DNA of 64,000 nucleotides, from NCBI GenBank assembly GCA_003584625.1, contig AP017647.1, positions 916,603 to 980,602 of the forward strand, written 5' to 3'. Position 1 is the stretch's first letter. The number at the start of each line of letters is the position of its first letter. Positions 16,924-47,112 of this stretch are shown here, piece after piece. The notes under the pieces were generated by a model. It was given only the letters and a program-made list of their open reading frames with translations, did no database searches and was not told the origin of the DNA. The position numbers and the translations under genes were made by a program. The DNA is from Methanothermobacter sp. MT-2 (GTDB lineage Archaea > Methanobacteriota > Methanobacteria > Methanobacteriales > DSM-23052).

Positions 16924-17030
16924 AACCTATATCAATCCACTTTCAAATATAAAAGTTCGTAGAATATGATATAAATATTTTTTGGTGAACATGAAAAGAG
17001 CGGGGACATTTAACCAGCCACCGCTGCTAA

Positions 17031-17290
17031 ACCCCCCCTAAAGGGGGGGGATACAACAAGGGGAGGCTGAAAGGATAACCTTTATACTTCAAGGATATAC
17101 ATGTAACTTACAAGGCTGAGAGAGCCCGGTAGGGTATGAGGAGAGGATGTGGAGGGGGCTGGGTCCCAAAAGGCCCGTAGAAAAAAAACCACTCCTCATG
17201 ATCCCTTACTAGAATGTGATTGAAGGGCAAGTTCTCTCGATGAGATGGGAAGCCCCAGTCCGTCAAGACGGGGATAGTTCACCATCCCCC
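17031..17290 (+). pseudogene. Relic of an IS200/IS605-type TnpB 3' end (omega-RNA region), copy 1
   Basis: No complete gene lies between the tRNAs and ppcA. From about 17129 one frame reads VGYEERMW...KRPVEKKPLL, hits a TAG, then continues VIEGQVLSMRWEAPV. The PVEKKP...EGQVLSMRWEAP pattern is, from memory, typical of archaeal TnpB C-termini. It ends in a stem-loop (AGCCCC...GGGG) followed by ATAGTTCACC, like the right end of IS605 elements. The zinc finger and RuvC domains are gone. A seven-pair C/G hairpin (17032-17038 with 17043-17050) stands upstream. The retained piece corresponds to where TnpB omega RNAs are encoded. Whether it is transcribed is unknown. Family assignment by pattern, moderate certainty. 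Confidence 0.55.
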
Positions 17291-17381
17291 TAAAGGAAAA
17301 AAAACTAAATATGCCATAAGACTTGTTAGAGATGCTGTGAACACCCCCCCCGAGTGGGGTGGATGGGCTTATCCTATACTT

Positions 17382-46680: not shown

Positions 46681-47112
46681 TTATAGTTCTTTTTTCATCA
46701 CCACTGCATCGTCACCATTCTCATAGTATTGGGGTATCCTATTTTCTTCTTTAAACCCTAGGCTCTTATAAAATTTTATAGCCCCTTTATTTTTCGCTCT
46801 AACCTCTAATTTCACCTTTTCGATACCAAACTTTTTGAAGATGTCTAGGGCTGTCTGGACAAGTTGTGTTCCGAATTTTCTGCGACGATATTTTTTATCA
46901 ACTGCCAAGGAGATGATATGTCCCTCATCCTCAAATCTTATCCAAAATATAATATATCCTACAACCATATTATTTTCTTGGGCAACGAGAAAACCAGCCC
47001 CTATATCATAAAGGTAGCGTAGAAGTTGTGGGGGATATGGATCATCAAAGGACATCATCTCGATTTCCACCACCCTCTTAAGATCTCTTAGTCTGAATTC
47101 CCTCACAATCAT
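46681..47112 (-). CDS. rimI: Archaeal RimI/Ard1-type N-terminal acetyltransferase
   Basis: A 143-residue GNAT protein. The acetyl-CoA loop is in RKFGTQLVQTALDIF with preceding HIISLAVDKKYRRR (residues 75-100), and substrate-binding FDDPYPPQLLRYL is near the N-terminus, as in archaeal Ard1-like N-alpha-acetyltransferases. Divergent from the UPF0146 gene with 22 bases between the starts, so both promoters overlap. Likely co-transcribed with carAB downstream. Confidence 0.88.
   Translation of the reverse strand: MIVREFRLRDLKRVVEIEMMSFDDPYPPQLLRYLYDIGAGFLVAQENNMVVGYIIFWIRFEDEGHIISLAVDKKYRRRKFGTQLVQTALDIFKKFGIEKVKLEVRAKNKGAIKFYKSLGFKEENRIPQYYENGDDAVVMKKEL

Follow-up and report, generated by a model that had tools for sequence, protein, structure and literature searches.

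Transposase-free remnants of an IS200/IS605 element in the chromosome of Methanothermobacter sp. MT-2, very probably the fossils of a formerly trans-mobilised PATE family

Palindrome-associated transposable elements (PATEs), which lack a transposase, are already known in both archaea and bacteria. In Haloquadratum walsbyi, core deletions in IS605-type elements have led to elements of this kind (PMC3119063), and Halanaerobium hydrogeniformans carries a PATE-like element of 271 nt composed of a left-end hairpin, the last 58 nt of tnpB and the right end (PMC7290912). The element described here lies in a stretch of 64,000 nucleotides of the Methanothermobacter sp. MT-2 chromosome (the window), and it resembles the H. 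walsbyi PATEs in being short, in lacking a transposase and in its near-terminal palindromes, IS605-type kinship and diverged copies (PMC3119063), but it belongs to another lineage, has other sequences, and combines a promoter-like site with a tnpB 3' remnant at about 275 bp. Its resemblance to the H. hydrogeniformans element is close: it too joins a left-end hairpin to the last part of tnpB and the whole right end, although a single copy was reported in that case, in a genome with IS605 partners (PMC7290912), whereas many copies and no intact partner are found here. The members of the present family are new.

The chromosome is a single contig of 1,522,738 bp (C1), of which the window covers positions 916603-980602. 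Within it, the element occupies part of a 457-bp spacer whose two flanking genes, one for tRNA-Gln(CTG) and one PEP-carboxylase-like, lie on the minus strand. Its right boundary (TTCAC) is firm and its left one approximate (Table 1), with window positions 17009-17282 corresponding to model positions 2-273 in the profile match. The initial annotation of this region had described a TnpB-like C-terminus with a terminal hairpin, beginning at 16986 and retained as a solo relic of an IS200/IS605 element. The feature is real, but it begins at about 17008, and the C-terminus and right end, both of which are present, make up an incomplete account of its extent, since a left end is there as well. The described reading frame with one stop is found at 17174-17287 (PVEKKPLLMIPY, the stop, then NVIEGQVLSMRWEAPVRQDGDSSP), the stem at 17252-17274 and the ensuing ATAGTTCACC are both seen, and the catalytic part is indeed gone.

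Table 1. Features of the element (window coordinates) and its close copies elsewhere in the chromosome (C1 coordinates).
Feature	Position	Strand	Basis
Whole non-autonomous IS605-derived element (PATE/MITE)	17008..17282	+	Comparison of copies, profile match
Left end with subterminal hairpin CCCCCCC (17032-17038)/GGGGGGGG (17043-17050), then ATACAACA	17008..17075	+	
Putative promoter-like site AACCTTTATAC, pointing to the right end	17077..17087	+	Presence of a TATA-like box
tnpB coding remnant YKAERA, codons just 5' of the zinc finger	17107..17126	+	Copy-consensus DNA match
3' remnant of tnpB with a broken frame, comprising its final ~35 codons after deletion of the zinc finger	17149..17287	+	DNA identity to L027, frame check
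Right end: GAA, hairpin GCCCCAGTCC/GACGGGG, then TAGTTCAC	17249..17282	+	Layout as in most copies and parent
Close copy	C1:309158-309430		E 7e-46
Close copy	C1:158171-158384		E 3e-39
Close copies (three)	C1:768606, 1088466, 1481130		

The element encodes no transposase of its own, its 275 bp containing only broken frames, and the tnpB codons that remain run in shifted frames (...EGQVLSMRWEAPV). Subterminal hairpins are present at both ends, those at the right being GCCCC..GGGG stems, and each arm pairs better with its own partner than with those of the other copies (p 0.006 and 0.03), in a comparison of hand-picked arms that favours this very result. Taken alone, the right-end stem of the window copy folds slightly better than shuffled sequences (z -1.3); of seven other right ends, five surpass their shuffles by a clear margin (z -1.9 to -4.8), and the remaining two, from copy L002 and the parent element introduced below, do not.

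The origin of both ends can be traced to a degraded IS605 element (L027) in the sister genome of Methanobacteriaceae archaeon 41_258 (G003; LGEU01000014.1), which preserves remains of tnpA and tnpB. This parent has a left end of the form TCAGCTGCTAAG..CCCC..GGGGATACAGCAGGGG and a tnpA start that reads as degraded in the sequence (MKYKLDKGAHSVYSLYYH...). Its tnpB is broken, and its right end, GGGAAGCCCCATCCGTAAAGGCAGGGTAGTTCAC, includes the stop of the TnpB C-terminus (MKIIEGQVLSMKREAPSVKAG). Both ends of the window element align to it, the left over a shorter stretch with GCTGCTAA-CCCC..GGGGATACARCA in common (L027 1594-1650), and the right strongly, with 75% DNA identity to L027 2702-2823 over the last 120 bp (blastn E 1e-17). 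The IS200/IS605 affiliation initially proposed for the right end is hence borne out, frame and right end alike matching the parent. The proposed tnpB C-terminus holds too, for the C-terminal peptide of the parent TnpB scores 55 at 17162-17287 and 34 at the next-best place in the six frames of the 64-kb window; the TnpB C-terminus peptide has no match among plasmids. The two elements thus share both ends, TTCAC and the TnpB C-terminus, but the parent still holds much of tnpA and tnpB, in broken form, and is devoid of the YKAERAG codons discussed below, apparently by a deletion of its own. TnpB relatives from the Methanobacteriaceae were discarded as a source, their readable right ends being of the TTCAA type, another subtype.

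At the DNA level, similarity well above chance is seen at five further loci of the genome, the best two being 77-78% identical to the region. The six copies in this 1.52-Mb chromosome have identical internal junctions and one and the same order of parts: a left part, which in most of them comprises a C-run/G-run hairpin and GATACAACA, then the TATA-like AACCTTTATA, then CATGTAACTTACAAGGCTGAGAGAGCTGGTAGGG, and after a middle the right end, which has TTCAC. Because all six share these junctions, a single deletion derivative has multiplied, and because the IS605 left end is also present, the family probably moved as a unit. A simple scar left by one degraded full-length insertion, with no family behind it, would agree with the broken frame of the window copy, yet the same internal junctions at six loci refute such an origin, to which we give next to no credence, and with it the "solo" status first ascribed to the relic.

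A profile built from the six copies reveals about nine further near-full-length, more diverged relatives in the same genome (among them C1:716166, 13418, 414806, 473703, 1223026, 1073296, 289348 and 865875), together with fragments, and additional relatives, some of them full-length, in the sister genomes G003 and G002; for the weakest of these matches (about 20 bits), support comes from the layout visible at their left and right ends and not from the score by itself. In all, about fifteen remnants of some 270 bases each are scattered through the chromosome. Most copies retain TTCAC at the right end. No precise point of cleavage emerged on the left, nor is a TTCAC target seen beside the left end of most copies; both tell against the origin proposed below. 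Across 152 genomes of the phylum, the right-end pattern matches in this genome only, at one further place (371344), and the core pattern has no match in GTDB genome contigs or IMG/VR.

Several diverged copies fall into groups of their own. A second subfamily (L150, L151, L152, L153 and L121, at C1:414806, 473703, 1223026, 1073296 and 371344) has a different middle (TTTCAGCTAACTGTGGTGGGAAAGCTAGCCCACA...) with a right end of the same kind, and in L150-L153 a left end of the same kind as well. Two others, L157 (C1:1201600-1202120) and L156 (1171650-1172050), have nearly identical left halves and carry TATAAGGCTGAAAGAGTCGGTAG, which is YKAER-like, followed by another stretch, forming an intermediate subfamily. 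A copy with 95% identity in G002 (L155/L162) was dismissed as a sign of strong selection, for it sits in an exchanged tract of about 2 kb and its identity does not reflect constraint on the element. With an identity of mostly 93-99% between G002 and the present genome, against a background of about 80%, this tract (L170, reverse-strand positions 400-2400, compared with L171) probably stems from recent recombination between the species.

Comparison with sister species shows extra DNA at the loci of other copies. In three sister species, the gene pair that flanks copy L003 is divided by a short AT-rich spacer; here this spacer is several hundred bases longer, comprising the element and, less in keeping with the proposed origin, further DNA on both its sides; the L002 and L006 loci also exceed their sister-species counterparts in length.

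Between the two ends, the conserved middle of the six copies also consists of tnpB codons. In TnpB, the YKAERAG motif directly precedes the zinc finger, and the copy consensus CTTACAAGGCTGAGAGAGCTGGTA agrees in 24 of 24 bases with the corresponding codons of a Woesearchaeota tnpB (L116) whose product is 49% identical to the parent TnpB. The assignment is based on this 24-base DNA match, represented in alignment by copy L002, which departs from the consensus at two bases; tblastn scores of TnpB against the six copies are near the shuffled range. Derivation of the core from the start of tnpA was set aside in favour of the tnpB codons, as its alignment to the tnpA start of the parent is not significant (p 0.09).

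This middle forms part of the most conserved stretch among the six copies (17076-17136), which shows 78% identity, gaps excluded, as opposed to 60-63% elsewhere, and exceeds the expectation from shuffled columns (0/5000), bearing in mind that the comparison involves only six copies and that the shuffled columns are not independent. Simple decay would not predict such an excess, a point against the explanation favoured below. Part of it stems from ascertainment, that very stretch having served to find some of the copies; the elements could also have retained a promoter and the start of an RNA during their active period. Conservation beyond the column shuffles would likewise be explained if the stretch had been exapted as a small RNA that has nothing to do with TnpB and serves a regulatory or structural role, but much of it is accounted for by the YKAERAG codons and the promoter-like site, in many of the more divergent copies it is missing or the middle is a different one, and the statistic itself carries the reservations just given. 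We hold this explanation to be very improbable.

The promoter-like site merits closer attention. TATA-like boxes lie some 20-36 nt past the left hairpin in most copies, and perfect (8/8) matches occur in 9 of 18 scored segments, against 3.7 expected from shuffles (maximum 8 in 500); the scoring leaves out five other close copies, in which the box (AACCTTCATA/AACCTTTATA) is visible. The window copy scores 7/8. From this we infer that transcription would have started near 17105-17112, at a predicted distance of about 175 nt from the right end. TnpB guide RNAs are made from the right end of their element, and the tnpB 3' remnant would correspond to the scaffold of such an omega RNA (reRNA), lying in the same place, across the tnpB 3' end and the right end, with flanking DNA as the would-be guide. 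The difference is that an intact TnpB is absent here. Although the element in itself is a case of ordinary transposon decay, the apparent retention of a promoter-like site ahead of its RNA-coding tail is its one curious feature.

It is conceivable, if unlikely, that the element is a solo omega-RNA gene, in which its own promoter-like site would drive a transcript running through the scaffold into flanking DNA; this RNA would guide a TnpB supplied in trans to cut the empty donor site, so that the PATE stays in place. The full-length copies do join the left end to the right-end scaffold, usually with a TATA-like box between them, the distance from RNA start to right end is predicted at about 175 nt, and the conserved stretch contains a short stem (CUUAC..GUAGG) that most of the six preserve, with changes of the U-G/C-G type. 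RNAalifold, however, yields two small stems with almost no covariation in the six copies, a single predicted pair showing changes on both sides, and in Rfam only tRNAs reach the gathering score, with nothing credible at E<=1, although a match is not a required feature of omega RNAs, not all of which have a model. Above all, the 99.96%-complete, single-contig chromosome contains no intact TnpB (PF07282, TIGR01766). Its sole trace is a relic at C1:760584-760893 that carries a frameshift and has a related right end, and the full-length TnpB with the same right end envisaged by the initial annotation is not there. Of its two suggestions, a decaying scar and an RNA used in trans by a TnpB elsewhere, the former is supported and the latter, given the lack of an intact TnpB in so complete an assembly, is unsupported in this strain. 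The cognate machinery may have resided on a lost or unassembled plasmid.

The chromosome has no Y1 transposase (Y1_Tnp, PF01797) above the cut-off either, with two weak, stop-ridden matches; this absence concerns the present mobility of the family, not its origin. Within the window, a Y1 transposase-like match at 46783-46962 is weak (E 0.09), is interrupted by two stops and may be due to chance.

We thus consider it highly probable that the window element is a fossil of a PATE family derived by internal deletion from an IS200/IS605 element and formerly mobilised in trans. An autonomous element with tnpA and tnpB, resident in the methanogen lineage, would have lost its interior, so that its left end, promoter-like site included, came to abut the YKAERA part of tnpB; this part in turn would have been brought next to the tnpB 3' end and the right end once the zinc-finger codons were lost. 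The product, of about 275 bp and with both terminal hairpins, would have been spread in trans by TnpA, and the subsequent disappearance of tnpA and tnpB from the genome would have left its copies to decay in intergenic spacers. Mobilisation in trans and past transcription from the promoter-like site are the inferred parts of this scheme. While TnpB was present, full-length copies may have made guide RNAs in trans. That the family represents promoter-plus-omega-RNA cassettes, selected for their own guide RNA through the recutting of empty donor sites by TnpB and outliving its loss, is a bolder proposition that we deem unlikely. What looked like a single scar belongs to a family of such fossils in a methanogen genus, whose IS605 parent is partly preserved. 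This family is a concrete system for asking if TnpB can be supplied with omega RNA in trans by short derivatives of IS605.

The spacer between the tRNA-Gln and PEP-carboxylase-like (ppcA-like) genes is an apparent insertion hot spot across sister species. Since the G001 and G002 spacers are unrelated to that of the window, the locus offers no readable empty site. Adjoining the element, GCCCATCCACCCCACTCGGGGGGGGTGTTCAC on the minus strand (17337-17372) resembles a second IS605-type right-end hairpin with TTCAC, in the opposite orientation. The equivalent spacers in G002 (L071) and G001 (L072) contain a minus-strand GGAAGCCCC..GGGG stem, and perhaps another TnpB C-terminal relic as well.
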